Positions 167-58,731 of a DNA stretch of 58,731 nucleotides are shown here, piece by piece. Made by a program: the position numbers and the translations under genes. Positions within the stretch are counted from its first letter, which is position 1; each line of letters opens with the position of its first letter. The notes beneath the pieces were generated by a model. It saw only the letters and a list, made by a program, of their open reading frames with translations. It was not told where the DNA came from and ran no database searches. Location of the stretch: positions 1-58,731 of the IMG/VR virus record IMGVR_UViG_3300023199_000106; one strand, 5' to 3'. Source of the stretch: a virus.

Positions 167-742
167 TCACGATTCAATTGGACAATCGGGCCGTTTAGCC
201 ATGATCCGAGCCCGTTCGTCCGAATCGAGTCCGGTCAGATCGATCGGGCAGTCGGGCCGGTTGGTCATGACTCGCGCCCGTTCGTATGAATTAAGCCCGG
301 TCAGATCGATCGGGCAGTCGGGCCGGTGGGCCATGACTCGCGCCCGGTTGAATGAATTAAGTCCGGTCAGATCGATCGGGCAGTCGGGCCGCTCAGCCAT
401 GACCCAAGCCCGTTCGTTCGAATCGAGTTCGGTCAGATCGATCGGGCAGTCGGGCCGGTAGGTTATGACTCGCGCCCGTTCGAATGAATTAAGCCCGGTC
501 AGATCGATCGGGCAGTCGGGCCGTTTAGCCATGACTCGTGCCCGTTCGTCTGAATTAAGCCCGGTCAGATCGATCGGGCAGTCGGGCAGGTGGATAATCG
601 CCCAAAGAGCCCATTCTGAATTGTGAGCCACCAGCTCAGTCCATTTTCTGGGCTGAGCTTCGAGCCAATCGAGTGCTTCTGAGCAAGCGCCAAGCTCGCG
701 TGCACAGTTGATCATTTCCTGTGTGATTAGGTAGTTAATCAT
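167..742 (-). CDS. Leucine-rich-variant-like 22-residue-repeat protein, paralogue 1
   Basis: This 191-residue protein has an N-terminal domain of about 50 residues (ITQEM, ACSEALDWLEAQP, HNSEWALWAIIHLPDCPI) followed by six full 22-residue repeats and a short cap ending PIES. Each repeat has the frame RPDCPIDLTxL, then a variable stretch, then ERAxVMA. Pro, Cys, Leu and the VMA helix are fixed, while the residues after the Asn-Ser or Asp-Ser and the last residue vary. The pattern resembles leucine-rich-variant (LRV) solenoid repeats; that is inference. The N-terminal domain recalls phage proteins beginning ITxEM...AC...WL. It has a ribosome site (aaggagcac) and a 29-bp spacer to the next copy. 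It is one of four tandem paralogues around the window ends. No function can be assigned. Confidence 0.8.
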   Translation of the reverse strand: MINYLITQEMINCARELGACSEALDWLEAQPRKWTELVAHNSEWALWAIIHLPDCPIDLTGLNSDERARVMAKRPDCPIDLTGLNSFERARVITYRPDCPIDLTELDSNERAWVMAERPDCPIDLTGLNSFNRARVMAHRPDCPIDLTGLNSYERARVMTNRPDCPIDLTGLDSDERARIMAKRPDCPIES

Positions 743-753
743 ACTTGTGCTCC

Positions 754-1533
754 TTATGTGAGATTTTCTACGTCTGCTATGATTTGTCGGCGTACAGTAG
801 TGTTTTCTTCTTCAAGCCAGTGAATTTCTTTTACTGAGTCCAAATCGATTTCATCTGCAATCCCGTTGATTTTATAGTCACGACCATAGAAGCCCCCACA
901 GCTGTCAATTTCATCGTTGTTTTCATTATATAAGATATAATCGTAGACCTCGTTAGTGAGGTATTGGTTATAAATCTCAACTTCACATTTCAAATAATAT
1001 GACACAAACTGTTCAAAAGATTGGAACTCACAGTCAACGCACTGGCCGTTATCCCAGCATTGTCGGACTAGAGGGAAGTCTTCAGGTTTGATGTCATACG
1101 TTTCTGCAGCGCGGGCTTTCGACACATAAATAAATCCAACGCGCCCTGAATCCCAATGACAGGCAAACGGGATGCAGCGCATCGTAATACCAGAGTGGTC
1201 ATACAAATACAGTTCGTTGATGACAAACAGCTCATCAAGTTTTTCAACAATGCGGTTGTAATAAGCTGCTCGCCAATTTTCGAGAGCATCAACGCTGTTA
1301 TGTTTTGCAAAAAATTCTTCAGCCTCACGTTCAAGATTTTCAAGAAAACCTTCGTGACCTTTGTTAATGAGCATTCTTTCGTAAAACTCTTCGATTGAAC
1401 CAGGTGTTCTAATGTCACCCAGAGAATAGTCAGAATGCCAACAAACCATCGTACCGATGTTGTCAGAGCATTTGCGAGGGTCTGGCGGGTTTAAATCCCG
1501 TTGTATTTTGAGAATGTGTGTGCGCTCTGTCAT
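754..1533 (-). CDS. Conserved phage hypothetical protein (HILKIQRD...GTMVCWHSDY...LGD family)
   Basis: A soluble 259-residue protein. The opening, HILKIQRDLNPPDPRK followed by GTMVCWHSDYSLGD, is the signature of a family I recall as common in phages and mobile elements with no known role. It is rich in acidic and aromatic residues and has no signal peptide or membrane segment. The ATG at 1533 has a GGGGAGAA ribosome site and overlaps by four bases (ATGA) the stop of the 31-codon gene upstream, so translation of the two is probably coupled. It sits in the leftward early block between a terminator and the repeat-protein family. Function unknown. Confidence 0.8.
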   Translation of the reverse strand: MTERTHILKIQRDLNPPDPRKCSDNIGTMVCWHSDYSLGDIRTPGSIEEFYERMLINKGHEGFLENLEREAEEFFAKHNSVDALENWRAAYYNRIVEKLDELFVINELYLYDHSGITMRCIPFACHWDSGRVGFIYVSKARAAETYDIKPEDFPLVRQCWDNGQCVDCEFQSFEQFVSYYLKCEVEIYNQYLTNEVYDYILYNENNDEIDSCGGFYGRDYKINGIADEIDLDSVKEIHWLEEENTTVRRQIIADVENLT

Positions 1534-1650: not shown

Positions 1651-1683
1651 AAAAAATGCCCTCCCAGCCGAAGCTGGGAGGGC
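1651..1683 (-). terminator. Rho-independent terminator
   Basis: An 11-bp GC-rich stem, gccctcccagc/gctgggagggc (1658-1668 with 1673-1683), closes a TTCG tetraloop as read on the minus strand and is followed by a run of six U. It begins eight bases after the stop of the 1691-2434 gene and ends that transcript before the small gene at 1625. Confidence 0.9.
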
Positions 1684-1690
1684 AAGAAGA

Positions 1691-3011: not shown

Positions 3012-3021
3012 ATTTGATCTC

Positions 3022-3369: not shown

Positions 3370-3557
3370 GAGGAGCGCCCCTTGCGCGCCAGCCGGTTGG
3401 CCCGGCGGCGGTTGGTGCGGGCTACGCCGTAGCCCGCGGGATCCGTCAGGCCGGCGTGTGCCAGCTTGGCGGGGTGGTCGGCCGGGAGGGCGTTGTACGC
3501 CTTCCGGGCCGTTTGTGTGTCGCGGCTGTTGACCGCGACTTCGGGTCTTGTTTTCAT
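3366..3557 (-). CDS. Small basic hypothetical protein, 63 residues
   Basis: Very basic C-terminus (RTNRRRANRLARKGR) after a helical RKAYNALPADHPAKLAHAG segment, so nucleic-acid binding is possible but unproven. The ATG at 3557 overlaps the TGA of the 3554-3892 membrane-protein gene, and its own stop overlaps the next start: a chain of ATGA junctions. An AGGCA-type ribosome site lies upstream. Confidence 0.65.
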   Translation of the reverse strand: MKTRPEVAVNSRDTQTARKAYNALPADHPAKLAHAGLTDPAGYGVARTNRRRANRLARKGRSS

Positions 3558-5517: not shown

Positions 5518-5544
5518 GAAGTATACAAATATACAGTATTTTTT

Positions 5545-5797
5545 GCGTAACGTTTCAGTTGCAGAGCGTTGCGTAACGTTTCAGTTGCAGAGCGTTGCGT
5601 AACGTTTCAGTTGCAGAGCGTTGCGTAACGTTTCAGTTGCAGAGCGTTGCGTAACGTTTCAGTTGCAGAGCGTTGCGTAACGTTTCAGTTGCAGAGCGTT
5701 GCGTAACGTTTCAGTTGCAGAGCGTTGCGTAACGTTTCAGTTGCAGAGCGTTGCGTAACGTTTCAGTTGCAGAGCGTTGCGTAACGTTTCAGTTGCA
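5545..5797. repeat. Iteron array: nine full and one partial 26-bp direct repeats
   Basis: Nine identical, directly abutting 26-bp units begin at 5545 and run to 5778; each starts gcgtaacgtttcagttgc and ends agagcgtt. A tenth unit keeps only its first 19 bases (5779-5797). There are no spacers, so it is not a CRISPR array. Identical iterons beside an AT-rich region with inverted repeats are typical of plasmid and phage replication origins where an initiator binds cooperatively. No gene crosses the array. Confidence 0.85.
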
Positions 5798-13794: not shown

Positions 13795-14282
13795 GAAGCA
13801 ACGTTACTTTATTGGCAGACCACGCTGATGCTCGGGCGCGTCGTCTAAACGCTATTGAGGCTATCGCTGTACGTGGCATGCGGACAAAAGAGGCAGCGGC
13901 ATTTGCTGGTATAGAACCTGCAACGCTGCGAAATTTGCTGAATGATGAGCGGGTTCAAAGCTACATCAAGCAGATGCAGGCTGCGCATGCCGAAGCCCTC
14001 AACGTGCGTCGTGGGGATGTCATTCGAGGCATGTTGGATGCCATTGACCATGCCAAGCTGGTCAATGATCCAAGCACCGAGATCCGTGGGTGGGAGGCCA
14101 TTGCCAAGCTCCAGGGGTACAATGCACCTGAAAAACACCTACACGATTTGCCTGATGATACGAAGCGGCTTCTTGAAGCTATGCAGAACATGAACGACGC
14201 TGACGTTGCCAAGCTGGCCAATATGGACGATTTGATTGACCTGATACCTGGCAAAGACTTTAAGGTAGTCAGCAGTGAATAG
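13791..14282 (+). CDS. terS: Terminase small subunit
   Basis: 163 residues. The N-terminal helix-turn-helix (RLNAIEAIAVRGMRTKEAAAFAGIEPATLRNLLNDERV) is that of phage small terminases, followed by a helical oligomerisation part and an acidic C-terminal end (LEAMQNMNDADVAKLANMDDLIDLIPG) that probably contacts the large subunit. It recognises the packaging site on phage DNA. It lies directly before the large subunit gene with an eight-base overlap, and its ATG overlaps the Rz1 stop. Confidence 0.85.
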   Translation: MRSNVTLLADHADARARRLNAIEAIAVRGMRTKEAAAFAGIEPATLRNLLNDERVQSYIKQMQAAHAEALNVRRGDVIRGMLDAIDHAKLVNDPSTEIRGWEAIAKLQGYNAPEKHLHDLPDDTKRLLEAMQNMNDADVAKLANMDDLIDLIPGKDFKVVSSE

Positions 14283-33349: not shown

Positions 33350-35038
33350 ATGGCACGTACTAGACATAGATTGCGTAAATTCGATTCCACGACGCATCCT
33401 GAACTTGAAAGGGGTCCTGGTGGTACAGGACGACGCCCCGAAGCTCCGAATATACAGGATGACATAGCTGCTACCCGGAATATAGAGGCTCCTCCTGAGC
33501 AGCCGTTTGGGCTTCGCCGCTTAGGGGGGCAATCGCGTCCTGTTCAGCCAATAGTCGGACGGTCTGAGCTAGAAGAAATGCAGAGACGCGCGCGCATTGA
33601 TGCGGCGTCAGCTATAACTAACCCATCGCGAAGGTTGGGTACTCGATCCTCTCGAGGGTTAACTATTGGGCAGCGCGCGCAACTACAAAACGCGCCGACT
33701 GCTGCTGACTTTTTACATAGCCGCCTTGATGCTATGATCAAAAGTCGTCAAGAAAACCCCACTGCTGTAGCGGCTAAGGAGCGTGGTCTTCGCCGGCTTG
33801 AAAACGACCGAAATTTCAACCTGGGCGAACAAGAGATAGCTGTCAGCCGAGAGGCTGCGGCCGCACAAGAGCGCGTGGGGTTGCGCGACGTCGAAGAGCG
33901 CGGCATTTCGAACCAGGCTGATATTCAGGTGCGCCAGGCTGATACTCAGGTGCGCCTGGTCGATGCTCTGACGCGACTAAATCAGAGCATCAACTCGCGC
34001 GGCACTGATGAGCAGCCAGATACTTCCGGGCTGATGCCTACCCGGGATATTACGGATGACAAAGGCAACGTGACTGGCACCGTTTTTGACTATACAGCCT
34101 TCGGCAATATGGATCAAACGGGGCAGCGTGCTATTGCTAGCAACATCGGCACCACAGTAGCTTCGCAGCTTACTGTGTCAGGCATTACTGCGCCTGAGAA
34201 AGACGTCGGGAATTTGGCTTTTACGATGCTGCAGAACACGTCGAGTGAGCTCGCCGGCATGAATGACGAAAAGCGGTCCGTTTACGAACGGGTGCTACCG
34301 AACGACCGCGGTGGTGTTGAGCGGCTGATGGTGGCGGCTCTTGCCCTGCCTTCGCTTGGTAAAGGCGTGTCGGCAGCAACATCACTGCCGCAAGCGCTGG
34401 ATCAAATCATGGAGTTAACGGCAAACGAAAAAGCATCATGGTTTGGTTTAGGGCGGAACAAATCTCGGGTTGGTGAAGCGAGCATTGATTTCGACAAGGC
34501 ACAAGGATTTGCCCGCACGCAGATCAACACACTAAGAGCATTTACTCGCCAGGCTGCGGCAGAGATGGCGCTGGTCAACCCGACGCAAGCCAAAAAAGCG
34601 TTGCGGGCTATTTTGAAAAGCGATTTGGATGAGATTGGGACGCCACCGCCCTTACCCGGCACCAGCTTTATGGGGGCGAATACAATCAGGCCCGAACTCG
34701 CTGCGGAGAGGGATGAACAGCGTGTTAAAATCCTTGCTCAACGAGAGCAGATTAAGGAATTGCAGAAAGCCCTCGCTAAAGATACGCCAGAAGGGCTGGC
34801 TAGAGTGCGCGAGTACATGCTCAACCAGGCAGAAAAAGAGGCGCTAGCAGAAGGTCAAACTCAGGCGCGAAATAGAATTTCACAAGCTGCTACGGACGTA
34901 GTCCATGCACCCGACGGGGCAGAAGCAAGCGCCGATTCTCGCGAGGCAGAAGAAGGCTACCCTCTTCGCAGGAGAGAAGTAAGCGCCGAGTTTCTCGAGG
35001 AAGAAAAAGAAAGAGAGAGATCTCAATATGGCTTCTGA
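33350..35038 (+). CDS. Putative internal virion/ejection protein, 562 residues
   Basis: Start at the ATG at 33350 (AAGGA at seven bases); the ATG at 33344 is too close to that site. The protein is charged, helical and rich in Arg and Glu, with GPGGTGRRPEAP near the start, IQVRQADTQVRLVDALTRLNQS in the middle and an Arg/Glu tail (EEKERERSQYGF). No membrane segment. The gene overlaps the giant protein gene by 11 bases, and this pair resembles podovirus internal proteins that are ejected with DNA. No enzyme motif is recognised. Confidence 0.55.
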   Translation: MARTRHRLRKFDSTTHPELERGPGGTGRRPEAPNIQDDIAATRNIEAPPEQPFGLRRLGGQSRPVQPIVGRSELEEMQRRARIDAASAITNPSRRLGTRSSRGLTIGQRAQLQNAPTAADFLHSRLDAMIKSRQENPTAVAAKERGLRRLENDRNFNLGEQEIAVSREAAAAQERVGLRDVEERGISNQADIQVRQADTQVRLVDALTRLNQSINSRGTDEQPDTSGLMPTRDITDDKGNVTGTVFDYTAFGNMDQTGQRAIASNIGTTVASQLTVSGITAPEKDVGNLAFTMLQNTSSELAGMNDEKRSVYERVLPNDRGGVERLMVAALALPSLGKGVSAATSLPQALDQIMELTANEKASWFGLGRNKSRVGEASIDFDKAQGFARTQINTLRAFTRQAAAEMALVNPTQAKKALRAILKSDLDEIGTPPPLPGTSFMGANTIRPELAAERDEQRVKILAQREQIKELQKALAKDTPEGLARVREYMLNQAEKEALAEGQTQARNRISQAATDVVHAPDGAEASADSREAEEGYPLRRREVSAEFLEEEKERERSQYGF

Positions 35039-38000
35039 CCCATACTCCCAAGATATTATTGATTCTCTGCGTAGTCACGGGATTGACGTACCCGACCCTG
35101 TACAGCCTTTGACACATCAGCAGCGAGTCCGACTTGGCGAGTTGAATCACGAAGCATCGGTTCTTGACAACTTTCATAGTGTTAAGGAACAAGAACGTTT
35201 AGAGAGGCTTCAGCAGGATACTAGGACTATACGACGTCATATCAGCCAGTCCGAAGAAGATCAGCAGGCGTTGCGCCGACGGCTGCTCGATACTGCCGCA
35301 CAGCCTGAGCCTGATCAGCCCCCGACCCTGTTAGACACGATGCGAGTGTCTGGCGATCGGGATTTTCGGCTGGAAGCCCGCGTCGCTCTCGAAGATACGA
35401 CGACGCCTGCCGGCCGGGGTCTGCGAGCGGCGGGCCAAAGCTTGGCCGCAGCCGTGCCAGGCACCGAGGCGCTGATCCGTGGCACTTTCGGCGACGAACG
35501 CGGCGCTGTGCTGGCTGCAGACCGGGCATTGCGACGGCAGGAGAGGGCGGCTGAGATCGGCCCCGACACCAGCATGCGCGGGGTGCTAGAGGGGGACGAC
35601 AGCCTGGTTGAGTGGGCAGCCGGCGCGATAAGTGCTCAGGCGCCGATCCTGGCGACGTTCATCGGCTCAGGATTCGTGGGCGGTCTTGTGTCCCGCGGGC
35701 TGCAGCAAGGGGCGGCTCAGGCACTCAGAGCGCAGGCCGTGCGCACCGGGGCGACGCTGGCTGGCACCGAACGCCGCGTTGCGGCTCAGCTGCTCCAGCT
35801 CAATCGCGCCAGAGAGGCCCACGCAGCGGCGCGCACCCGCAGCACGGCCGGTGCTGTTGGGGGGCGAACTACGCAGCTCCGGTACGACCGGCAGCGCCTG
35901 GCGATGGCTCAGGAGGTTCACGACGAAGCGCGCGAGCTGCTGGTGCGCCACGCACTAAAACGAGCACGGAACGAGCAGATCGGCAGCGCGGTGGCCGCGA
36001 CGAGCGCTGGGGTGCCTTTGTATGGCGCTGAGACCAGCCAGTTTTTGATTGACCCGGAAGCCGACGCGACGATCCAGCAGCGCGCGGCCGCAGGCATTGG
36101 GGCGGCGTTTGTCGCCTCATTGGCGTCTATGGCACCCACCGTGGCCGTGTTGCGGAACGTCGACATGGGCGCCAGCGCTGCGTTCCAGATTCAGCGGGCC
36201 ACTCAGTCCGCTCTGACTCGCGTAGGGGGCGCTGCGGGTCGGCAGGCGGTGTACGAAGGCTCAGCCGAAGCTGTGGCCGAAATCAGCAAAACCGCAGTGC
36301 ACGGACTGATCAACGATAACATCGAGGTGTTCAGCAACGACCAGATATGGCAATACATGGAGGCTGCAGTGGTCGGCGGCATGCTGGGTGGCGGGATCGG
36401 GGGCGCGACGGCTGCACGCGGTAGCGATTTCCGCGAGCTGAGCAGCTGGATGATGCGGCTGCGGCCGGCCGGCCCGTCAGAGTCGCTGGTGATTCAAAGT
36501 CGTTCAGAAGCTGAGCGCTCTCGTTCTGCTCGCCGCGCGCAGCCTGAGAACGACCAGGCGCGCCAGCTGTACGACACGCTGGATGACGAGACGCGCGCGC
36601 AGCAGAGCTTTGAAGGCCCAGGCGGGTTCCTTGAAGAGTTCAAGTGGGATCGGGCCGAAACGACCGCTCTGGGCAATCTGGTGGATGGCATGGACGCGCT
36701 GGAAGCTGGTACGTTGCTACGGATTCTGGTGGACCCTACGGCCGCCGAAGCAGCAGCGACTCCTCTTGAGTCCGGAGCCGAGCTCTCGTCCCTGGGCTCA
36801 GCGGCCTACGAACGCTTGGCCGCAGTGGTTGGCGAAGGAAACATGGCAGCGACCCTTGATGCGGCGCGTGACTCTCTTTTGGCGCAGGAAGCGTTCCTGC
36901 TGCGCATGGATAACCTGGCGTTTGACACGAAGCCGTTGGCACCTGCTGAAGCTCGCCAGATGTCTCGTCGGATTCAGGGGCGTCGGGAGCGCATCAAGGC
37001 GATTCGGGTAGAGATGCAGAGCGAAGGCATTGAATCTTCACCGGCGTTTAACCGAGAAATGGCTGCCGAGATGCTGGGTGATCGGTTTGGGCAGGATCGA
37101 GTATCGGTAGCGGTCGATGATGAGGAGCTTGTCAGCGCGGAGCTTACTAAGGAAGGCATCCAGCGCGATGCAGGTGACGAAGAATTCATAGCAGGTACAC
37201 AAGAAGCGGATCTGGTCGTTTCGTTTCCGTTTGGCCCGGACGACCGTGCTGCTGGCCCGGATGCCCAGCCGCGGAGCACAGAAGGGAAAACGAACATCGG
37301 TCCGGTCGGCCGAGTTTGGACGCGCAACTCCGAGGCAGCGCGCAAGCAGGCGGAGAAGATCAACCAGCGCTCGGGTATGGACCTCGAAGCAGGCCCTGGC
37401 CCCGCCCAAGTGGTGCCGGTCGCTGAGGCAATGGAGCGGGCGAAAATGAGCTCAGAGGACATTATTGCCGTGGCTCGGGAGCACTGGGTAGAGGATACGG
37501 GGCGAGGTAGTCGGTTCAGAAAAGAACAGGCTAAAAAAGCAGCTGACGTTGCAAAAGTACAGGCCGAAGTAGAGCAGGTGCGACAGAGGCTGGCAGAACT
37601 AAAAGCGCAGGCCCCATCTCCAATTGCGCAAATCCAAGAAGAACGTAACAACTTAATCGCTAGACTAGAGGTAGAGGTAGAGTCTGCAGACGACCGCGTA
37701 GCCGCAGCTCGGTTGGAAATAGCCAAAGCCTACCTCAATCAGTTCGAAACTGTCATTTCCGAGCGGCTGCCAGATAGTGTGTCTGGGCGGGAGCAGCGCC
37801 GCTTTTCTGACCGTGAGGCCAATGCTCTAATCCTCTACAAGATGCCATTGAATTTAGAAGGGCATACTCGAGGTGAGCTGGCCGGCAGCCCGGTGGCGAT
37901 CAATATAGTTGGTGCGACGCAAGCGATGTACGGGCGCATCGATGATCGCCAGGCATCCGGCCGGTCTAAAGAAGAACGGCAACGTTCAGGCGAGCGTGAA

Positions 38001-41000
38001 CGCGCTGAAGGTGGTACCTCGCGTGCTGAGGCCGGCCTTGATGGGATTGCGCGGGCGTTCAGCGAAGCGATGGCGGCGATGATCGAGCGCGGCGTCAAAT
38101 TCCCCCCGACAATCCGAGGCGATACGATCGTGTTCCGTCGTGCAGGCGGCGAAGCGATCACGGCTGGTGAACTGATCGGGCAGACCGCACTATCGAAGAA
38201 AGCCGCTCGGATGATTCAGGACACGGACGTTGCCGGCCTGACGCGCAATCGCAACCGGCTCCAGGCGGCTCTGAAAGCCACTTGGATGATTCAGGACACG
38301 GACGTTGCCGGCCTGACGCGCAATCGCAACCGGCTCCAGGCGGCTCTGAAAGAAGCCAAGGGAAAAGAGCAACGCGCGGCGTTGATGCAGCGTATCAAGT
38401 CATTCAACGCACGGATCGAAAAAGCCAAAGGATTGAAAGAGCAACGCGCGGCGTTGATGCAGCGTATCAAGTCATTCAACGCACGGATCGAAAAAGCCGA
38501 AGCAGCTCAAGAAAAGCAGATCAAGCGTTTGCTCGATCAGGCGAAGGGGCTGGAGCGCGCAGTCAGTATTGTGGGCGCAGCGCCTTTCAAAAAGCGGTCA
38601 GATGCCTCGCTCAAAGAGCAGGCGGAGAGACGTCTTGCTGTCCTGAACAAAAAGCGCACCAGTCTTGCAGCCAAAGGTGAGCAGGCAGGCCTCATCAAAA
38701 ACAAAAAAAAGAGGGAAGCAGCGTTCGACGCACTGACAGTTGAGTGGTCAGACTGGCGCGCGGAGCAAGCGGCTTGGGTGGCGATCCGCGACATGCTCGA
38801 CACGTTGACCCCGAAGCAGACTGATGCACGGCTGACTCGCGCCCGGAAGCGCCTGGCTCGCGCTAAGGTAGCGTTGATGGAAGAGCGTTTGGACCGAGCG
38901 TACATAGCGCTGGGATTACGCGAAGGCGCGCAGACCAACTCGCGCGTCGAGACCATGAAAGAATTTATTCGCAACGAAATCAATGGTGTCAATGAAGCAG
39001 CGTTCAGAGACCCTGATCAGGGGTACGTAATTTTCGGCGAGAAGGTCCAGCTCGATGAAGGCCACGACATCCGTGTCAAAGAGCTACGCCGCGAGTTAAA
39101 GATGCTTAAAAAGATAGAGGAGCCATCACAAGAGCAGATTGAGTATATCCAGCTGCTGCAGGAGGCGTTACCTGACGATTTCTCTGTCCTGCTAGGCCCC
39201 ACAATATTTGCTATCAAACAACAGCTGGAAGCGCTTAAGAATCGTAAGCCGCTCGCTACTCTTGCTAGTCAGACTGAGCTAGGACGCATAGAAGTCGTAG
39301 CTCGGTATTCTCCGGAAACTCTTCGATCTAACCCAGAAAAAGTTTATGTATTTGGAGATAACCTTGTTAAGAAGGGTAAAGGCGGTCAAGCAATAATTCG
39401 AGACGAACCAAATGCATTTGGTATCCCAACTAAGCGGCTACCGTCAATGTCTGCGCAGGCTTTTTTTGGTAAAAATATCACAGAAGAAAAAGCCGCTATT
39501 ACGGCGGCAATAGATGAGTTAATAGCTCTTCGGCGGCAAGGCAAAACCATAGTTTTCCCTCGCGATGGACTTGGTAGTGGGCGCGCGCGCATAATACAAA
39601 AATCACCAGAAGTTGCTGCCCATTTATCTTCTGAACTTAAGCGTTTTCGTAGTTTAGAACAAACTGAGCAGAAACAGCCCGCTCAGCCCGCTCAGCCCGC
39701 TCAGCTCGCTCAGCCCGCTGCAACCCCAGAAGTCAAAAAGTCCGCTCAGGCAGTCGAGCAACAGCTAAAAATTCCTGAGTCTGGAAAAGGAAGTTTAGCA
39801 AACCCTCACGTTGTTCCGATGAACTTCGAAATCAGCCGTCCTGAGCTACGAGACAAGTACAAAGGGTCGGACGGAATTGCAAAGTTGATTCGTAATAAAG
39901 CTTGGCTTGCAACTTTTAGGCGTCCATTAGTAGGAGTTAAGCAAGGGCATATTTTCAGTATTCCCTTATTTCTCGGTAAATACCAAGTAATAGGGTTTGT
40001 AAAAACTGACTTGAAAAGCGGAGGTTGGAGCATAGAAGCAGAAAGTACTTTTAGTAGTCAAGTACAGCACGGGGAAACTCAGATGTTGTTTTTTCGCGTT
40101 GATGAAGCTCAGCCCGCTCAGCCCGCTCAGTCTGCTCAGCTCGCTCAGCCCGCTGCAACCCCAGAAGTCAAAAAGTCCGCTCCCGCCGCCGCCAAGCGTC
40201 AAGTTGTAGAAGATGCCATCGTGCGGGCGACAACCCAGGTCAATACGGCCCAACGCGAAAATGAAGCGCGGTACGCCAGCCGGATCATCAAGGGATTGAA
40301 GCTGGCACAAACGACGCTCGGCAGCGTAATCTCAACAGCTGAAGCGGGCAAGCGGGTCAAGGGGAAGAACATCGACCTGAACAACCACGACGGTCTGGTC
40401 TTCCAGCGCATCAACCGGGAGACCGGTGAAATTACGATCGATATATGGGTCAACGAAACAATCACCGACCCGGCTGAGCGCCTGGGTGTGATTCACCATG
40501 AGATGGGGGAAGCAATCGTGACCAGCCTGGCGTACAAGATTGACGTAGGCGACGCTGTAGCAATCATCGCTGCGTACAACAAGTGGCGTGCGCAGGCAGA
40601 ACGAGGCTCCCAGGGTGCAGTAATCAAATCGAAGCGTAGTCTGCTGAACATGCTGCGGGTGCGGCGTAATGACCCGACGATGATAGAACAGCTGACCCAA
40701 GCGGAGCGCGATAACCTGCTCGATTTCCAGGAATGGTTTGCTGACAACGTGGGGCGCTGGCTCGAAACCAACGCTCGGCCTCGAGGCGTCATTGAGAAGT
40801 TCTTCGCCAGCGTTGCGGCTAAGCTCAAGCAGCTCATGGGGCTAAATCGGAAAGAAGGGCTACCGGAAACAACGGTAGCCAGTATGCTGAACCGGATGTG
40901 GGACAGCAAAGCGCCGAACGGGCATATCCGCAAGTTCAATCTTTGGCAGCAGCTGACGAAGCACGAGGCGCTCAGCCGAGTTTCGAAGATCGAAGACATC

Positions 41001-44000
41001 GTCGAAGAGATCCGCAGCCAGTATAAAGGCCCGATCGACCCGAAGCGCGCGCTGACTGGGTCAGTCGTAGCCGCGACGCAGCCGCACTCGATCGAGGCGT
41101 TCTGGGGCATCCGTGATTACATCGTAGCGAAGATGTCGTCAGAAGAACGGCGTGCTCTCAGCCGCGTGTTCATTCGACCGAGCGTTCAGCGCTCGCTGAA
41201 AGCCACCTACCAGCGCTCAGCCAAGGCTGGGCAGATCATTCCGTCTGACCCGCTTTCTCAGCTGGCTGTTGGCTACATGCTCTACACCGCTGGAAAGCTC
41301 GATCTTCAGCCAAACTCAGCCAAACCTTTCCGGGCGATGAGCCAATGGCTGCACAAAGTAGCCGGCATGGTCCAAGCGCACGACCAAGCGTATCAAGTGC
41401 TCTCGGCCATCCAGGCTGACGTGTTCAGCGCTCGGGAAACCACGTTGTTCGCTGAAGCGCCAAGCGGCAGCGGGCTCAACCGGGGTGCGTACGTCCTGGA
41501 GTCGGCCCAGCTGCGGCAGCTGGCACAGTGGGAGAAGCTGTTCAACATTACCGAGCAGCTGTCCAATGGAGCCAAAGGTGTCAACGAGCTGATCGAGACT
41601 CTGGTCGACCGAGCCGACCCAAGTGTGTTCCCCAAACATCTGCATGCCAATCTGATAGCCGACATGAGCGGGGGGGTGTTCACTGAAGAGTTCCTGGCTC
41701 AGTTCAAAGACCAGAGCGATTTTGTGCTGAATCCAGACAAGACGTTCGAGATCCAGAAAATCATCGGCACTGAGCCGTTGCAGCACAGTGCACAGGCCGT
41801 CTACAACCTGCTCAGTGGCAGCAAGGACTTTTTGCGCAACAGCCTGCTGGGTAAAGCCGCGTTGGGTGAAGCGTACCGCGGCCGCTTGATGGAGAACCTG
41901 GGGTTCCTGGGGCTGCAGGAGGCGTTGTTCACCGACGTTCTGCAGGAAGGTCCAGGCGAAGGGTTCATCAACCGAAAAGACTGGATGAGCGGCGCGTTTC
42001 AGACAGAGTGGGAGAGCATTTGGTCCGGGCTGACCGTCGATGAACAAAAGAATTTTCGTGAGGCGTTCTACCGCCACGAAAAACCGTCGACCCCTGCCGT
42101 GCAGGCTGCGCTGCAGCGCACGAATCGATTCATGCGGAAGCTGCACAAGTACGCGCAGGAAGTGGGTTTGCTCAAAGGCAGCCGGTTCGATGGGAATTAC
42201 CGCCCCTGGGCGTTTGACGCCAGGAAAGTGGACCTCCATTCTTCGAGGCTGCTGGAAGCCTGGACGCATCAGCGCTACCGCAAGCAGTGGTTCAAACTGT
42301 TGAAAAAACACTACCCAGACCAATATGCAATCCAGGAGGACTTTACTTCTGACGCTGATTATCAGTCCTACGTGCGGGCCTGGATCGCTAGCATCGCATT
42401 CGAAAACGGGTTTGCTGACAACCATAGACCGAACCCGGACGAAGTGCGGACCCAGCCGATTGCCCAGGCGCTCAACCGGCGCGAACTGGCTTTTCTGGAT
42501 GATCCGAAACTGGCACCGGAAGCTGATCGACAGCTGCTGGCCGGCCTGTTTGATGACTCGATCAACACGACCATGGCGAAATACATTAGCCAGATGGTCA
42601 AAAAAGTCGAGTACGTTCGAAAGTTCGGAGCGCATGATGAAAAACTGAATCGTCTCTACGCTCAGGCTCGAGAACTTGGCGCGACAGACAAGGATGTTGA
42701 GCTGATGCAGAACATGGTGAAGTCAGCCACCGGTCGGCACGGGCTGGAGGTAGCGACGTTCTGGAAAAAGATCGCTGAGCCGATCAACAAGCTCTACAAG
42801 CCTGTGCGAGATACGGGTGGGCAGCCGTTCAAATCACGCGAAGACGCTATGCACGCGCTCAAGAGCATGACCGGCAGCGGAGAAGTTGTCTCTGTTGAAG
42901 GCGGTTTTGAAGTGCGTCGGAGCATAACCGCGGACCCACGCCGGTTCAGACAAAATATGAGTTGGGTAGTGGTGTATCAAAATTGGAGGTTATTGGCTAT
43001 GGCAGCCTTTACGAACGTGGCTGACCTGGCAGGCATTGCGTTTCGAACGGGCAACCTGTTTTTGGCGTTCGAGGCGTACCGGGAAGGCGTGGGGAGGGTA
43101 ATCAGAGATGTGAAGGGGGCCAAGCGCCCGGCGGATGTCAAGCGGGCCGAGATGGACAGCGTCGAGCGGCTGGCCCAAGAGCTGGGTGTCGTTGCGCACG
43201 CGAGCGTCTCAGATCACCTGGGGCTTCAGTATGGATCGGTGCACATGACTGGGAGGGCCAAGATATGGAACGACACCCTGTTCAAGCTGAATGGCATGGA
43301 GTACCTGACGCGGGCGATCCGGATAATGGCTGTGGCCGCAGGGCGCCGGTATCTGGCGATGCACGCTCAGCTGGCCAAGGATGGGGTGGAAGGCAGCATC
43401 GAGCTGCTGACGCAGCTGGGGCTGGACCCAGCGGACGTCAGGCTCGACGCTGATGGGGAGCTGACGTTGATGCCGATCGACCGGATCAACGAGGTGTTGG
43501 AGGGCTCAAAGTTCGCTACAGGCATCGGGGTCAACGAGGCGATCAATCGGGGGGAGAAAGTAGATGCGAAGGCCGCTGAAGTGGCCCGTGACGACCGGGT
43601 CAAGCGGGCGCTGAACCGTATGGTCGACGAGTCCGTGCTGCGGCCGGCCAGCTGGCAGCGGCCGACCTGGATGAACGACCCGAACTGGCAGATCTTTAGC
43701 CACCTGAAAGGCTTTATGTACACCTACCATGAACGGGTGTTGCGCCGGATCATTGGCCGGGGCATAGCCGGCAGCGTAGCCCCGCTAATCATGGCAGCAG
43801 GGTATGTTGCAGTCATGATTGCCGCGGACTGGCTGCGGGAAATCATCCAGCACGGGCCAGAAGGTGACGATCGAAAAGAGCGCTGGGGAGTCAAGGAGCG
43901 CGTCGCTGACGGCATCCACCGCTCAGGGCTGCTGGGGATGTACACTGTGATCCCTGACATGATGAAAACGCATGAGTTCGGCCGCAGCATGCTGGCGCAG

Positions 44001-44234
44001 ATGGGTGGGCCGGCGACAAGCCAGGTCGAGCAGCTGTATCGAGCGCTGCTCGGCCCTGGCGACGTCGGTATGGCGTTCAGGCGAGCGCTACCAGCGTCAC
44101 AGATAGTAGTGGACCCAATGGTCAGCTGGAGCAGTTGGGCAGTCAATCCAAAAGCCCTGGAGCCGGAGCGAAGAGGTCTTGGCGTGCCGCTGGTGCGCCC
44201 GGAAGTAGTCGAGGCGCTGAGCAGTGACGGCTGA
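35028..44234 (+). CDS. Giant virion protein, 3068 residues; probable ejected polyvalent protein
   Basis: The largest gene in the window. Hydrophobic stretches at about residues 195-225, 350-375 and 445-465 could insert into membranes. Long coiled coils lie at about 830-900 and 1040-1320. A domain at about 1425-1550 carries VFGDN, GKGGQAIIRDEPNAFGIPTKR and PRDGLGSG, a widespread phage domain of unknown role. Near 1820 VIHHEMGEAIV and near 1900 FQEWFADNVGRWL look like a metalloprotease site with the second His missing. Near the C-terminus QIFSHLKGFMYTYHERVLRR and MAAGYVAVMIAADWL recall large polyvalent proteins of podoviruses and conjugative elements. It probably enters the host with DNA. Base composition is patchy. 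Confidence 0.75.
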   Translation: MASDPYSQDIIDSLRSHGIDVPDPVQPLTHQQRVRLGELNHEASVLDNFHSVKEQERLERLQQDTRTIRRHISQSEEDQQALRRRLLDTAAQPEPDQPPTLLDTMRVSGDRDFRLEARVALEDTTTPAGRGLRAAGQSLAAAVPGTEALIRGTFGDERGAVLAADRALRRQERAAEIGPDTSMRGVLEGDDSLVEWAAGAISAQAPILATFIGSGFVGGLVSRGLQQGAAQALRAQAVRTGATLAGTERRVAAQLLQLNRAREAHAAARTRSTAGAVGGRTTQLRYDRQRLAMAQEVHDEARELLVRHALKRARNEQIGSAVAATSAGVPLYGAETSQFLIDPEADATIQQRAAAGIGAAFVASLASMAPTVAVLRNVDMGASAAFQIQRATQSALTRVGGAAGRQAVYEGSAEAVAEISKTAVHGLINDNIEVFSNDQIWQYMEAAVVGGMLGGGIGGATAARGSDFRELSSWMMRLRPAGPSESLVIQSRSEAERSRSARRAQPENDQARQLYDTLDDETRAQQSFEGPGGFLEEFKWDRAETTALGNLVDGMDALEAGTLLRILVDPTAAEAAATPLESGAELSSLGSAAYERLAAVVGEGNMAATLDAARDSLLAQEAFLLRMDNLAFDTKPLAPAEARQMSRRIQGRRERIKAIRVEMQSEGIESSPAFNREMAAEMLGDRFGQDRVSVAVDDEELVSAELTKEGIQRDAGDEEFIAGTQEADLVVSFPFGPDDRAAGPDAQPRSTEGKTNIGPVGRVWTRNSEAARKQAEKINQRSGMDLEAGPGPAQVVPVAEAMERAKMSSEDIIAVAREHWVEDTGRGSRFRKEQAKKAADVAKVQAEVEQVRQRLAELKAQAPSPIAQIQEERNNLIARLEVEVESADDRVAAARLEIAKAYLNQFETVISERLPDSVSGREQRRFSDREANALILYKMPLNLEGHTRGELAGSPVAINIVGATQAMYGRIDDRQASGRSKEERQRSGERERAEGGTSRAEAGLDGIARAFSEAMAAMIERGVKFPPTIRGDTIVFRRAGGEAITAGELIGQTALSKKAARMIQDTDVAGLTRNRNRLQAALKATWMIQDTDVAGLTRNRNRLQAALKEAKGKEQRAALMQRIKSFNARIEKAKGLKEQRAALMQRIKSFNARIEKAEAAQEKQIKRLLDQAKGLERAVSIVGAAPFKKRSDASLKEQAERRLAVLNKKRTSLAAKGEQAGLIKNKKKREAAFDALTVEWSDWRAEQAAWVAIRDMLDTLTPKQTDARLTRARKRLARAKVALMEERLDRAYIALGLREGAQTNSRVETMKEFIRNEINGVNEAAFRDPDQGYVIFGEKVQLDEGHDIRVKELRRELKMLKKIEEPSQEQIEYIQLLQEALPDDFSVLLGPTIFAIKQQLEALKNRKPLATLASQTELGRIEVVARYSPETLRSNPEKVYVFGDNLVKKGKGGQAIIRDEPNAFGIPTKRLPSMSAQAFFGKNITEEKAAITAAIDELIALRRQGKTIVFPRDGLGSGRARIIQKSPEVAAHLSSELKRFRSLEQTEQKQPAQPAQPAQLAQPAATPEVKKSAQAVEQQLKIPESGKGSLANPHVVPMNFEISRPELRDKYKGSDGIAKLIRNKAWLATFRRPLVGVKQGHIFSIPLFLGKYQVIGFVKTDLKSGGWSIEAESTFSSQVQHGETQMLFFRVDEAQPAQPAQSAQLAQPAATPEVKKSAPAAAKRQVVEDAIVRATTQVNTAQRENEARYASRIIKGLKLAQTTLGSVISTAEAGKRVKGKNIDLNNHDGLVFQRINRETGEITIDIWVNETITDPAERLGVIHHEMGEAIVTSLAYKIDVGDAVAIIAAYNKWRAQAERGSQGAVIKSKRSLLNMLRVRRNDPTMIEQLTQAERDNLLDFQEWFADNVGRWLETNARPRGVIEKFFASVAAKLKQLMGLNRKEGLPETTVASMLNRMWDSKAPNGHIRKFNLWQQLTKHEALSRVSKIEDIVEEIRSQYKGPIDPKRALTGSVVAATQPHSIEAFWGIRDYIVAKMSSEERRALSRVFIRPSVQRSLKATYQRSAKAGQIIPSDPLSQLAVGYMLYTAGKLDLQPNSAKPFRAMSQWLHKVAGMVQAHDQAYQVLSAIQADVFSARETTLFAEAPSGSGLNRGAYVLESAQLRQLAQWEKLFNITEQLSNGAKGVNELIETLVDRADPSVFPKHLHANLIADMSGGVFTEEFLAQFKDQSDFVLNPDKTFEIQKIIGTEPLQHSAQAVYNLLSGSKDFLRNSLLGKAALGEAYRGRLMENLGFLGLQEALFTDVLQEGPGEGFINRKDWMSGAFQTEWESIWSGLTVDEQKNFREAFYRHEKPSTPAVQAALQRTNRFMRKLHKYAQEVGLLKGSRFDGNYRPWAFDARKVDLHSSRLLEAWTHQRYRKQWFKLLKKHYPDQYAIQEDFTSDADYQSYVRAWIASIAFENGFADNHRPNPDEVRTQPIAQALNRRELAFLDDPKLAPEADRQLLAGLFDDSINTTMAKYISQMVKKVEYVRKFGAHDEKLNRLYAQARELGATDKDVELMQNMVKSATGRHGLEVATFWKKIAEPINKLYKPVRDTGGQPFKSREDAMHALKSMTGSGEVVSVEGGFEVRRSITADPRRFRQNMSWVVVYQNWRLLAMAAFTNVADLAGIAFRTGNLFLAFEAYREGVGRVIRDVKGAKRPADVKRAEMDSVERLAQELGVVAHASVSDHLGLQYGSVHMTGRAKIWNDTLFKLNGMEYLTRAIRIMAVAAGRRYLAMHAQLAKDGVEGSIELLTQLGLDPADVRLDADGELTLMPIDRINEVLEGSKFATGIGVNEAINRGEKVDAKAAEVARDDRVKRALNRMVDESVLRPASWQRPTWMNDPNWQIFSHLKGFMYTYHERVLRRIIGRGIAGSVAPLIMAAGYVAVMIAADWLREIIQHGPEGDDRKERWGVKERVADGIHRSGLLGMYTVIPDMMKTHEFGRSMLAQMGGPATSQVEQLYRALLGPGDVGMAFRRALPASQIVVDPMVSWSSWAVNPKALEPERRGLGVPLVRPEVVEALSSDG
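38209..38498 (+). repeat. Two adjacent tandem duplications within the giant gene
   Basis: A 69-bp segment at 38209-38277 recurs identically at 38284-38352 (offset 75). A segment of about 60 bp at 38366-38426 recurs at 38438-38498 (offset 72). Both offsets are multiples of three, so they lengthen the coiled coil without frame change. Near identity indicates recent events. Confidence 0.9.
39678..40181 (+). repeat. 69-bp direct repeats flanking an accessory domain in the giant gene
   Basis: The stretch 39678-39746 recurs at 40113-40181 with few changes. Each codes for Ala-Gln-Pro linkers followed by AATPEVKKSA. The 366 bp between them code for a 122-residue domain (VVPMNFEISRPELRDKYKG ... MLFFRVDE). 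Recombination between the copies would delete or add the domain in frame. Confidence 0.85.
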
Positions 44235-50490: not shown

Positions 50491-52212
50491 CTAACAGACG
50501 TTGCGGCGACAATGCCCAGTGCCTGGGTAGGCCCGCTTACCACGGCCAACAATGCCGGCTTTGTACGGGCAATACCGGCAGGCAAAGTGTGAAGGTGTAG
50601 CAGGAAATATAGTTGTGCTGAGAATCCTTTCATGCTTGGCTTTCATTGTTGGAAAAGCACGAAGGACTTCGGAGCGCGTAAAAGTGCGCTTCATGATGTT
50701 TTCGCCAGGGGGCAGGTCGAGGTACCCGACAGCGACATCAAAAATCTGGATGTCTGAATTGGCTAAACTCACACCAATAGCGTATTCCATCAACTGCTCA
50801 TGATGTTTGATCTCGTTGTTTTTCTTTTTACCTGTATTATGAGTGGGAATCAAAGCTCGAGTACAGAGATACGTATGCGAAGGCGAATCGACAGCTATAC
50901 ATTGAGTCGGAACAGAATCAACTACACGCACGTCTCTTAGTTTTCTGTATGACGAGTGGCCTTCTCCCCAAGAGTCTACGCCTTTTACTTTTCTGGGCAA
51001 CGAAAAAGGGTTAATGTTTCTTGGTCTAAAAGAAACATAATAAGCTTGGGTTTTTTTTTCAAACCCTGTAGATTTATGAGGGGATACGTACGCCTGTTGG
51101 CCCAGAGAATTGGCGAGAGTTTTTATTTGCTCAGCAAGGTGCTCCACAGTTGTTGTATATACGGCTTGTTTACGTGTATGATTGGCGTCTCCATCTCCAT
51201 CCATAAGCCCTTGAAGCAGATCCAGTCGTTGTTTTACAGACCCGTTCATATAAACATCTGGAATAAATTTGTTTCTGCCGCAATTTAACAACCCCAGCTT
51301 TCTTAACGCCCCTCTAATACCTTGAACGGTGTACGTCGGGCACTTGTTTTTGTGCACCTTAGTATGTGTATTAACAGCATACCCTAGACTTTGTACTTTT
51401 TGCCAGATAAAATTTTCCGGGTTAGATACCTTACTTGAAGAATGCGTTCCGTCGGCCAACCAAAGACCAAGAACGTATGGATGTATAGGTAGCTTTTTAC
51501 GATGTAAATTGAGAGCGTCGGGCACTGGCAAGGCAATACTCTTTCCTTGCTGAAAACGTGCAGCTAATTCTTGCACGTCTACAACGTCTCCGTTGTGAAG
51601 CATCCATAAATGCTCAGCGTCACACACCACTTTTGTCCTATCTTTGAAAACCAATTCGTAACACGGGAGGTGTTTTACTTGTGATTTTCCGGTTACTTTG
51701 CAATGCGCTCCGTTTTTATCAAATACAGTGTCACCGACTTGGATTTCCCCCATCGTAACAAAACCATTTGGGGTAGCAATTTCAGTGTCTAAGGCAAGTC
51801 CTTTCCAATCAAGGATAAAAATTCTGTCGTCAGAAACTGTTACAGCGACGTCGATGATCATGCGGTACCGAGCATTTTCAAAATCGTCGCCAGCGCAAAC
51901 AGCCCAGTCGCTGTCGAACGCAATGCCTATTTCGAGATCAACTTTGCCTCGTTCGTAGCCTTTGCGAAGCGCGTTGAGCAATGGTAAGTGATGCCGCAGC
52001 TCGTGTGCGGGCTTGAGCAACGGGTTCTGAACATAGTCTTCGCACAGTTTGTGAATGCGCGAGCCACGGTCCATTGGATGCTCTTCGCCTTCAGGCAGCT
52101 CAGGCGCCGGATCAGGTACTTTTTCCAAGTGCTTGAGCTGGAACATGTAAGGGCACTTGGCATAGTCCTGCGCTCGGCTGAAGCTGGTGGACTTGACGAC
52201 GAGACTATCCAT
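50491..52212 (-). CDS. RecB/Cas4-like PD-(D/E)XK exonuclease, interrupted by an intein
   Basis: A 573-residue precursor; the exteins give 251 residues. The nuclease is SFSRAQDYAKCPYMFQLKH at the start (motif I-type region, Cys20), GSRIHKLCEDY, then ILDWK to residue 137 and TGKKKNNEIKHHEQLMEYA after the intein, which together form the DxK and QLxxY motifs of the RecB/Cas4 family. The C-terminus has CRYCPYKAG and a final Cys pair, so with Cys20 an iron-sulphur cluster as in Cas4 is likely. It should resect DNA ends in replication or recombination. TAATG joins it to the 52212-52451 gene. Confidence 0.85.
   Translation of the reverse strand: MDSLVVKSTSFSRAQDYAKCPYMFQLKHLEKVPDPAPELPEGEEHPMDRGSRIHKLCEDYVQNPLLKPAHELRHHLPLLNALRKGYERGKVDLEIGIAFDSDWAVCAGDDFENARYRMIIDVAVTVSDDRIFILDWKGLALDTEIATPNGFVTMGEIQVGDTVFDKNGAHCKVTGKSQVKHLPCYELVFKDRTKVVCDAEHLWMLHNGDVVDVQELAARFQQGKSIALPVPDALNLHRKKLPIHPYVLGLWLADGTHSSSKVSNPENFIWQKVQSLGYAVNTHTKVHKNKCPTYTVQGIRGALRKLGLLNCGRNKFIPDVYMNGSVKQRLDLLQGLMDGDGDANHTRKQAVYTTTVEHLAEQIKTLANSLGQQAYVSPHKSTGFEKKTQAYYVSFRPRNINPFSLPRKVKGVDSWGEGHSSYRKLRDVRVVDSVPTQCIAVDSPSHTYLCTRALIPTHNTGKKKNNEIKHHEQLMEYAIGVSLANSDIQIFDVAVGYLDLPPGENIMKRTFTRSEVLRAFPTMKAKHERILSTTIFPATPSHFACRYCPYKAGIVGRGKRAYPGTGHCRRNVC
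50836..51801 (-). mobile_element. Class 3-type intein with LAGLIDADG endonuclease, in the nuclease catalytic motif
   Basis: 322 residues between DWK and TGK. The first residue is Gly (GLALDTEIATPNG), which cannot act as a nucleophile. Block B is CDAEHLWML (His, Trp), block F PTQCIAVDSPSHTYLC, and the end is LIPTHN before Thr: the Trp/Cys/Thr triad of class 3 is present. LAGLIDADG motifs VLGLWLADGT and LLQGLMDGDG match those of the terminase intein (also LPI-HPYVLG versus LPI-SPYVLG). Borders are set by the uninterrupted LDWKTGK motif of the family. Confidence 0.88.
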
Positions 52213-56344: not shown

Positions 56345-56587
56345 TTACAAATGAGCTTCTACGATAATTGGTCTATTGAGGCTTATCGAACCATGCTCTA
56401 TTTGGCGCCCTGGTTGTAACCGCCAGCTAGTGTCGCCGAGCTTTTCTACAAGTTCAGCAGTGTAGATCTCATCTGAATTTTCGCTGTAAGCGCGCATTGC
56501 AGCGCTAATCGCTCGTTCTGCACTTTTTGCAGTAGTGGTTAAAAATGGTGTTTGTTCATTTAATCTAGTTAGCGTCACGGTAATCAT
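56345..56587 (-). CDS. Hypothetical early protein, 80 residues
   Basis: The ATG at 56587 follows TTGAGGAGGCCAATA, an excellent ribosome site, so the longer frame to 56656 is dropped. The product is beta-rich at the start (MITVTLTRLNEQTPFLTTTA), with a helix AERAISAAMRAYSENS and a strand-rich end. It overlaps the upstream membrane-protein gene by 23 bases. Not recognised. Confidence 0.6.
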   Translation of the reverse strand: MITVTLTRLNEQTPFLTTTAKSAERAISAAMRAYSENSDEIYTAELVEKLGDTSWRLQPGRQIEHGSISLNRPIIVEAHL

Positions 56588-56789
56588 TATTGGCCTCCTC
56601 AATTTCCCATTGTCTTTGCGTCCGGCAATACATCTCGCCAGCAATCGCATTCTCAAAGCAGCGTTCTTGTTGCTGCGTAATAGCGGGTAGCGTGGTTGTC
56701 ATCCACGCAACAAAAATGAATAACCCGCCAAGAAAAATCATCAGCGCAATGAGACCAATTGTCTCTCGCAAAAAATCTCTAGTCGTCAT
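56565..56789 (-). CDS. Small membrane protein, 74 residues
   Basis: One strong membrane segment at about residues 11-31 (GLIALMIFLGGLFIFVAWM) after a basic start, then a polar part with two Cys (QERCFENAIAGEMYCRTQ), likely in the periplasm, and an acidic end. The ATG at 56789 abuts the stop of the upstream gene (sharing one base, TAATG). Role unknown. Confidence 0.65.
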   Translation of the reverse strand: MTTRDFLRETIGLIALMIFLGGLFIFVAWMTTTLPAITQQQERCFENAIAGEMYCRTQRQWEIEEANNDYRDAN

Positions 56790-57016
56790 TAGACTCCTCC
56801 CATCACGTGATAGATTATAGCCGCTATGGCCATGACGGCCGTCAACGCCACCATAGCGACGATGACATTGCCGACTCTAGCTTCATGGGCTGCGCGGCGA
56901 GCCTCGTACAGGCGACGTGGCTGAGCACTGACCCAGGGTTTCTCAGTAGACCCCATCTCGTCTGGCGTCCAGTCGGGTCGCTCGTAGTCAATTTGTTTTC
57001 TCGTGTCTGTGTTCAT
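56789..57016 (-). CDS. Tail-anchored small membrane protein, 75 residues
   Basis: A polar, basic front (NTDTRKQIDYERPDWTPDEMG, RRLYEARRAAHEAR) precedes one C-terminal membrane helix (VGNVIVAMVALTAVMAIAAIIYHV, about residues 48-71). AAGGAGCACAAAA precedes the ATG. It lies directly after the repeat-protein family in transcription order. Role unknown. Confidence 0.65.
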   Translation of the reverse strand: MNTDTRKQIDYERPDWTPDEMGSTEKPWVSAQPRRLYEARRAAHEARVGNVIVAMVALTAVMAIAAIIYHVMGGV

Positions 57017-57046
57017 TTTTGTGCTCCTTGATATTGATGAATAAAA

Positions 57047-57823
57047 TTACGATTTGATCGGGCAGTCAGGCCGTTTAGCCACGATCCGAGCCCGTTCGTC
57101 CGAATCGAGTCCGGTCAGATCAATCGGGCAGTCGGGCCGCTCAGCCATGACCCAAGCCCGTTCGTATGAATTAAGCCCGGTCAGATCGATCGGACAGTCG
57201 GGCCGGTGGGCCATGACTCGCGCCCGGTTGAATGAATTAAGTCCGGTCAGATCAATCGGGCAGTCGGGCCGTTCAGTCATGACTCGCGCCCGTTCGGGTG
57301 AATTAAGCCCGGTCAGATCGATCGGGCAGTCAGGCCGTTCAGCCATGACCCAAGCCCGTTCGGATAAATTAAGCCTGGTCAGATCGATCGGGCAGTCGGG
57401 CCGCTTAGCCATGACCAAAGTTTGCTCGAATGAATTAAGCCCGGTCAGATCGATCGGGCAGTCGGGTCGGTAGACCATGATCCGAGCTCGGTCAGATGAA
57501 TTAAGCCCGGTCAGATCGATCGGGCAGTCGAGCCGTACAGTCATGACCCAAGCCCGTTCGTCCGAATTAAACCCGGTCAGATCGATCGGGCAGTCGGGCC
57601 GTTTAGTCATGATCCGAGCCCGTTCGGATGAATTAAGCCCGGTCAGATCGATCGGGCAGTCTGGCAGGTGGATAATCGCCCAAACAGCCCATTCAGAATT
57701 GTGAGCCACCAGCTCAGTCCATTTTTTGGGCTGAGCTTCGAGCCAATCGAGCGCTTCTGAGCAAGCGCCAAGCTCGCGTGCTTGGTTGATCATTTCCTGT
57801 GTGATTAGGTAGTCAGTCATCAT
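57047..57823 (-). CDS. 22-residue-repeat protein, paralogue with nine repeats
   Basis: 258 residues. The N-terminal domain matches that of 167-742 (Gln for Cys near AREL: INQARELGAC against INCARELGAC). Nine full repeats follow, several with unusual changes (RLDCPIDL, NSFEQTLVMA, LTRLNLSERA), and the cap ends PIKS. The start is MMTDYL. It is the longest copy. The variety among its repeats and near identity of some with repeats in the other copies suggest unequal exchange. Confidence 0.8.
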   Translation of the reverse strand: MMTDYLITQEMINQARELGACSEALDWLEAQPKKWTELVAHNSEWAVWAIIHLPDCPIDLTGLNSSERARIMTKRPDCPIDLTGFNSDERAWVMTVRLDCPIDLTGLNSSDRARIMVYRPDCPIDLTGLNSFEQTLVMAKRPDCPIDLTRLNLSERAWVMAERPDCPIDLTGLNSPERARVMTERPDCPIDLTGLNSFNRARVMAHRPDCPIDLTGLNSYERAWVMAERPDCPIDLTGLDSDERARIVAKRPDCPIKS

Positions 57824-57852
57824 TCTGCTTCTTTTGATATGAAAGAATAAAA

Positions 57853-58362
57853 TTACAATTTGATCAGGCAGTCAGGCCGTGCAGCCATGACCCAAGCCCG
57901 TTTGGATGAATTAAGCCCGGTCAGATCGATCGGGCAGTCAGGCCGCTCAGCCATGACCCAAGCCCGTTCGTTCGAATCGAGTTCGGTCAGATCGATCGGG
58001 CAGTCAGGCCGCTCAGCCATGACCCAAGCCCGTTCGTTCGAATCGAGTTCGGTCAGATCGATCGGGCAGTCGGGCCGCTCAGCCATGACCCAAGCCCGTT
58101 CGAATGAATTAAGCCCGGTCAGATCGATCGGGCAGTCGGGCCGGTAGGTTATGACTCGCGCCCGTTCGAATGAATTAAGCCCGGTCAGATCGATCGGGCA
58201 GTCGGGCAGGTGGATAATCGCCCAAAGAGCCCATTCTGAATTGTGAGCCACCAGCTCAGTCCATTTTTTGGGCTGAGCTTCGAGCCAATCGAGTGCTTCT
58301 GAGCAAGCGCCAAGTTCGCGTGCTTGGTTGATCATTTCCTGCGTGATTAGGTAGTTAATCAT
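57853..58362 (-). CDS. 22-residue-repeat protein, paralogue with five repeats
   Basis: 169 residues with the shared N-terminal domain, five full repeats and a cap RPDCLIKL. Repeats three and four are identical (RPDCPIDLTELDSNERAWVM), so a 66-bp unit was duplicated recently. A 29-bp spacer to the neighbour and the same ribosome site (aaggagcacaagt) are kept. Confidence 0.8.
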   Translation of the reverse strand: MINYLITQEMINQARELGACSEALDWLEAQPKKWTELVAHNSEWALWAIIHLPDCPIDLTGLNSFERARVITYRPDCPIDLTGLNSFERAWVMAERPDCPIDLTELDSNERAWVMAERPDCPIDLTELDSNERAWVMAERPDCPIDLTGLNSSKRAWVMAARPDCLIKL

Positions 58363-58392
58363 ACTTGTGCTCCTTGATATTGATGAATAAAA

Positions 58393-58731
58393 TTACGATT
58401 CGATTGGACAATCGGGCCGGTGGGCCATGACTCGCGCCCGTTCGAATGAATTAAGCCCGGTCAGATCGATCGGGCAGTCGGGCCGGTGGGCCATGACTCG
58501 CGCCCGTTCGGGTGAATTAAGCCCGGTCAGATCGATCGGGCAGTCGGGCCGCTCAGCCATGACCCAAGCCCGGTTGTATGAATTAAGCCCGGTCAGATCA
58601 ATCGGGCAGTCGGGCCGGTGGGCCATGACTCGCGCCCGTTCGAATGAATTAAGCCCGGTCAGATCGATCGGGCAGTCGGGCCGTTTAGCCATGACTCGTG
58701 CCCGTTCGTCTGAATTAAGCCCGGTCAGATC
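58393..58731 (-). CDS. 22-residue-repeat protein, C-terminal part (runs off window end)
   Basis: At least four full repeats and a cap ending PIES, the same cap as the 167-742 copy; the beginning lies beyond the window. The last bases (58681-58731) match 521-571. If joined to 1-137 through a 37-bp piece as in the intact copy, the reading frame would be open, giving a protein of about 170 residues. Confidence 0.75.
   Translation of the reverse strand, partial: DLTGLNSDERARVMAKRPDCPIDLTGLNSFERARVMAHRPDCPIDLTGLNSYNRAWVMAERPDCPIDLTGLNSPERARVMAHRPDCPIDLTGLNSFERARVMAHRPDCPIES

Follow-up and report, generated by a model that had tools for sequence, protein, structure and literature searches.

Why should a phage carry several tandem copies of a gene built from 66-bp modules, what may the encoded proteins do, and how do the modules come to differ? 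These questions are raised by a locus that had been predicted, from its letters alone, to encode a self-diversifying family of solenoid proteins. The window, i.e. the whole stretch of DNA analysed, is a 58,731-bp IMG/VR-type virus record, in which the repeat-gene array lies entirely on the minus strand and points toward replication genes.

Organization of the repeat-gene array

The array and its neighbors are listed in minus-strand order, in which the two contig ends fall between gE and gA (L012 is a related viral contig described below).

1657..1684 (−), terminator-like hairpin and T run that precede the inferred operon (12-bp stem, TTTTTT; consensus match only)
754..1533 (−), phrog_6186 family gene (phrog_6186, E 1.5e-20), with which the inferred transcription unit begins
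167..742 (−), gD, N-domain and six units, 191 aa
1..137 (−), gE, N-domain alone, truncated at the left contig end and probably the 5′ portion of gA
58393..58731 (−), gA, 3′ part, 5′-cut at the right contig end, four whole units and most of a fifth
57853..58362 (−), gB, N-domain and five units, 169 aa, DNA of units 3 and 4 identical
57047..57823 (−), gC, N-domain and nine units of 22 aa, 258 aa (from ORF and unit cut; AlphaFold2 pLDDT 93.8)
56789..57016 (−), small ORF directly 3′ of gC, with a hydrophobic stretch as judged by eye and 97.4% identity to its L012 counterpart
56565..56789 (−), second small ORF, the shared part of which (56602-56789) is 96.8% identical in L012
53829..56153 (−), primase/helicase-type replication protein (phrog_24712), downstream of the array

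Each paralogue joins an N-terminal domain (N-domain) of ∼53 residues to a run of 22-aa (66-bp) units, which are free of indels and follow the consensus DCPIDLTGLNSxERA[R/W][V/I]MAxRP. Among gB, gC, and gD, DNA identity in the N-domain is 94-96%. As assessed by the ORFs, by cutting them into units, and by TRF, which scored the array 963 at period 66 and 1115 at period 198, the locus is indeed a tandem family of 66-bp-module genes with a common N-terminal domain. Both contig ends sit in exact repeats in common with gD (127 bp in gE on the left, the first 107 bp of gA on the right), and exact repeats are a usual reason for assemblers to stop. Because the ends lie in such repeats, and the gene order across the junction matches that of relatives, gE and gA are most likely one gene, which assembly has split in a genome that is circular or permuted. 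The predicted number of four paralogues therefore stands, with six units in gD, five in gB, nine in gC, and, once the two fragments are joined as we infer, five in gE/gA. The extent originally given to the locus (57047-58731) was correct as far as it went and incomplete, as the array goes on at positions 1-742.

Several other features of the window deserve mention. Two intein-like insertions with LAGLIDADG domains interrupt a RecB-like PD-(D/E)XK nuclease (50491-52212, −) and the terminase large subunit (14275-16902, +), the former appearing to start with Gly rather than Cys/Ser. A perfect 26-bp tandem repeat (5543-5797, 9.8 copies), which could represent iterons or binding sites, occupies the gap preceding the late genes. 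A single 3068-aa virion-type protein (35028-44234, +) contains internal 75-bp and 72-bp tandem duplications.

Predicted fold and variable positions

For the nine-unit protein, AlphaFold2 run on a 13-member alignment (pLDDT 93.8, pTM 0.80) predicts that positions 11-20 of each 22-residue unit form a 10-residue helix, which gives a regular solenoid with one helix per unit. A four-unit construct gives the same fold (pLDDT 94.4), and the models of both forms thus agree with the expectation of solenoid repeats. Foldseek searches with the two models returned low TM-scores and, among the matches listed, none to the PDB at E 0.001 or better, and the best viral structure match was an uncharacterized Pithovirus protein (E 5e-3, TM 0.47). 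The solenoid type hence appears to be a confidently predicted fold without a match to any solved structure.

An alignment of 85 units from five contigs, 22 residues long without indels throughout, was used to locate the variation. Entropy is concentrated at unit positions 10, 12, 13, 16, 19, and 20. Variable sites had been placed after the Asn-Ser (12-13) and at the unit end (19-20); this was borne out, and position 16 and, across genomes, position 10 have to be added. Asp5 and Arg21 are invariant, and Leu6, Leu9, Arg14, Val17, and Met18 nearly so. On a helical wheel, by which exposure was judged rather than by accessible surface, positions 12, 13, 16, 19, and 20 fall at 340-100 degrees and the conserved residues at 140-300 degrees. 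The five variable helix positions span a 120-degree arc opposite the core, and only 1.1% of five-position subsets of the helix are equally tight, so that the predicted helix and the wheel together place them on one face, as had been anticipated. These positions are rich in Tyr, Phe, Trp, and Arg, with Tyr/Phe favored at position 12 and Arg/Trp at position 16. Such residues are typical of protein interfaces. Finally, pN/pS is 0.9-1.6 at variable positions versus 0.16-0.35 in the framework. A ratio of ∼1 fits relaxed exposed positions and diversifying selection alike, and selection for change is possible as judged from these sequences.

Relatives and probable remodeling of the array

With degenerate patterns that require the core motif, and would miss more diverged relatives, we found three other viral carriers among 2.9 million viral contigs. 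IMGVR_UViG_3300031216_000012 (L009) has four repeat genes and one stray unit, 3300048592_000454 (L027) has three repeat genes, and 3300023214_000082 (L012) has one. Among GTDB contigs there is one carrier (L033), binned as Patescibacteria, with two genes that lack the N-domain, beside an ERF-type gene; this MAG contig is likely a phage contig, and no further Patescibacteria carrier was found beyond that one MAG among 380. L011 and L013, considered as further carriers, were rejected as chance pattern matches or different proteins, and weak Pfam/PHROG matches to Pellino, TBP, and phrog_7582 were discarded as short motif matches. A relative of the phrog_6186 gene adjoins the repeat genes in both L009 and L027. 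L009 keeps the order phrog_6186-type gene, repeat genes, primase, and L027 likewise has a repeat gene between the phrog_6186-type gene and the primase. The nearest isolates by primase are the Pseudomonas phages KPP25/phiR18 (36%). Isolate phage records gave no match by blastn and, by tblastn to E 10, one irrelevant match and no repeat homologue, KPP25-like relatives included. No relevant publication on phage LRV or repeat proteins came up in literature searches.

Three pairs of units in the window are identical over all 66 bp (gB units 3/4, two gA units, and gB1/gD2). When codons were shuffled within columns, a linkage-free null, the mean was 0.002 identical pairs, with a maximum of 1 in 2000. 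Recent exchange of duplicate units had been proposed, and identical units within and between paralogues, far above this null, substantiate it. In L027, genes Y1 and Y3 share an exact 137-bp run that includes one identical unit pair, and exact runs common to paralogues measure 60-137 bp overall. The signal is not universal: identical whole units exceed the null in two of four genomes, with none, and no excess, in L009 and L033.

Comparison with L012 is particularly informative. Its module at 2921-3820 and window positions 56565-57823 have in common a repeat gene and the two small ORFs. The flank is 96.9% identical and the N-domain 88.7%, but there are four units versus nine in gC, and no unit is identical. 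Because the tail and structural genes of L012 are unlike those of the window, the repeat module moves between phages. The difference of nine to four units could be due in part to recombination with a breakpoint within the gene, and not to remodeling in place. Unit and paralogue numbers also differ across L009, L027, and L033. Separately, L009 carries a single 22-aa unit near the C terminus of an otherwise unrelated 298-aa ORF (7955-8851, −), which matches a unit of X3 at 61 of 66 bp and suggests that units may be captured by other genes.

Taken together, the cross-genome comparison supports a probable recombination-driven remodeling of the array, and the diversity would need no more than slippage or homologous recombination among 66-bp blocks that are nearly identical. 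Of the self-diversifying locus that had been envisaged, unit duplication and exchange and the nine versus four units at an orthologous site stand, and a dedicated mechanism or reverse transcriptase was not found.

Possible roles and likeness to known systems

It is quite possible, if somewhat short of probable, that these are early modular phage proteins that bind host proteins through a variable face remodeled by unit recombination. Each would consist of an N-terminal cap and a stack of 22-residue one-helix repeats, whose conserved framework would build the rod and whose positions 12, 13, 16, 19, and 20 would form a continuous variable face for protein targets. The targets would most likely be host proteins blocked or recruited early, with defense factors as leading candidates. 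Since the 66-bp units can replace one another and hardly differ in DNA, homologous recombination and slippage could add, drop, copy, and swap them within and between paralogues, so that new target faces would arise quickly. The array does lie beside replication genes, as expected of the early locus that was predicted, and early expression is presumed from that position. Counting against this reading, exposed positions vary in any repeat protein, pN/pS is not clearly above 1, a nearby Csx20-like gene (see below) is set off from the repeat operon by the terminator-like hairpin, the L012 difference may be partly a breakpoint effect, and L009 and L033 show no excess of identical whole units. Protein binding, host or defense targets, and selection for diversity are what we infer.

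Counter-defense is a plausible role and the leading candidate, from the position of the array and from a neighboring gene (2613-3080, −), ∼1.1 kb upstream of the phrog_6186 gene, which encodes a 155-aa protein resembling the CRISPR ring nuclease Csx20 (PADLOC E 5.9e-8). Rhodothermus phage RM378 and Pasteurella phage Pm86 encode relatives. Few phages carry Csx20, an enzyme that cleaves cA4 (PMC12409355), and the product of the window gene is a candidate anti-type III CRISPR protein. Because the terminator-like hairpin intervenes (1684-1657), the Csx20-like gene belongs to a different inferred transcription unit. The early-type position, the mobility of a small module, and the several paralogues are further circumstantial support for counter-defense. 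That the locus is, in full, a recombination-driven binder repertoire of unsolved solenoid type, in which 66-bp unit swaps retarget the variable face against evolving host defense proteins, is nonetheless doubtful and rather unlikely.

The best-surviving alternative, which we regard as less likely than host-protein binding but a serious contender, is passive repeat turnover. The proteins would be scaffolds with one conserved partner, in which exposed residues drift and unit number fluctuates neutrally by slippage and gene conversion, with no selection for diversity. This is consistent with a pN/pS near 1 at exposed positions and ≤0.35 in the framework, and with near-identical synonymous sites among units, which show concerted evolution. 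On the other hand, variable sites rich in interface residues are unlike a typical neutral surface, several diverged paralogues are kept per genome, and between the window and L012 divergence is much greater in the repeat gene than in the 97%-identical flank. It is improbable that the proteins instead bind a component of phage or host replication or DNA metabolism, for example as adaptors of the adjacent primase/helicase, with a face tuned to the phage's own partners. In favor of this, the replication operon directly follows the repeat genes, which have ERF/YqaJ/SSB-like neighbors in L012 and an ERF-like neighbor in L033 (as read from ORFs). Against it, the module travels by itself between phages that otherwise carry different genes (L012), and a tblastn search gave no homologue in the KPP25-like relatives that have the primase. 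An acidic DNA-mimic or nucleic-acid-binding solenoid is very improbable. The acidity of the window proteins (pI 4.5-4.8, charge −10 to −13) speaks for it, but charge is not conserved (X1, pI 6.1, −3; Y2, pI 5.5, −4), Arg is kept at 14 and 21, and the repeats resemble none of the pentapeptide, TALE, or PUF families.

Should the host-protein binding reading be correct, phages would resemble adaptive receptors in that the binding specificity of their early proteins evolves through the shuffling of entire repeat units. The units would offer a natural code-like scaffold for binding proteins, with five positions per 22 residues, and whether unit number and order track host defense content would become testable. 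Regardless of binding, the repeat proteins form a family not described before, whose confidently predicted fold has no match.

Among known repeats, the phage unit most resembles LRV (PF01816; PDB 1LRV), with which it shares an N/R-P-x-C-P-[IV]-[DE]-x-L...R...A core. Profiles of three units matched the LRV protein of Synechocystis pSYSA, a true LRV (E 4.5e-65) that matches 1LRV, with 83.7% hhalign probability versus ≤0.7% in 20 column-shuffled controls, and a tblastn match to an LRV protein had E 8e-9. The gene for the pSYSA protein, the closest cellular match (L007, 5242-7158), is listed on that plasmid immediately after type I-D cas1d/cas2 and before a DUF262 gene. The best LRV Pfam score of the phage repeats is 15.1 bits (10.5 in L033) versus a gathering cut-off of 21.6, and 1LRV is not among the best 50 Foldseek matches listed for either model; we therefore do not file the family as LRV. 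Its units are also shorter (22 residues versus ∼24-26, with 26 per unit in LRV), its N-cap differs, and it occurs as tandem paralogues in a phage. The Azotobacter LRV protein has a Cys-rich N-terminal 4Fe-4S domain, whereas the phage N-domain has one or two Cys and no Cys cluster. By sequence, the family is best described as a distant, contracted LRV-like repeat.

Diversity-generating retroelements likewise create phage diversity at set codons, and position-12 codons in the window, nearly all NNC, have a similar look. Such an element was rejected because no reverse transcriptase (PF00078) was found in the four records (the window and three related); control genomes did give matches. Here, diversity is apparently recombinational. 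In how they may work, the proteins are like ankyrin/DARPin, ARM, and HEAT binders, which are also modular solenoids with a fixed framework and variable exposed positions. They differ in that each 22-aa unit has a single helix, and they show no similarity in sequence to these binders and a Foldseek TM ≤0.25. A binder repertoire of this kind would be the natural counterpart of designed repeat-protein libraries.
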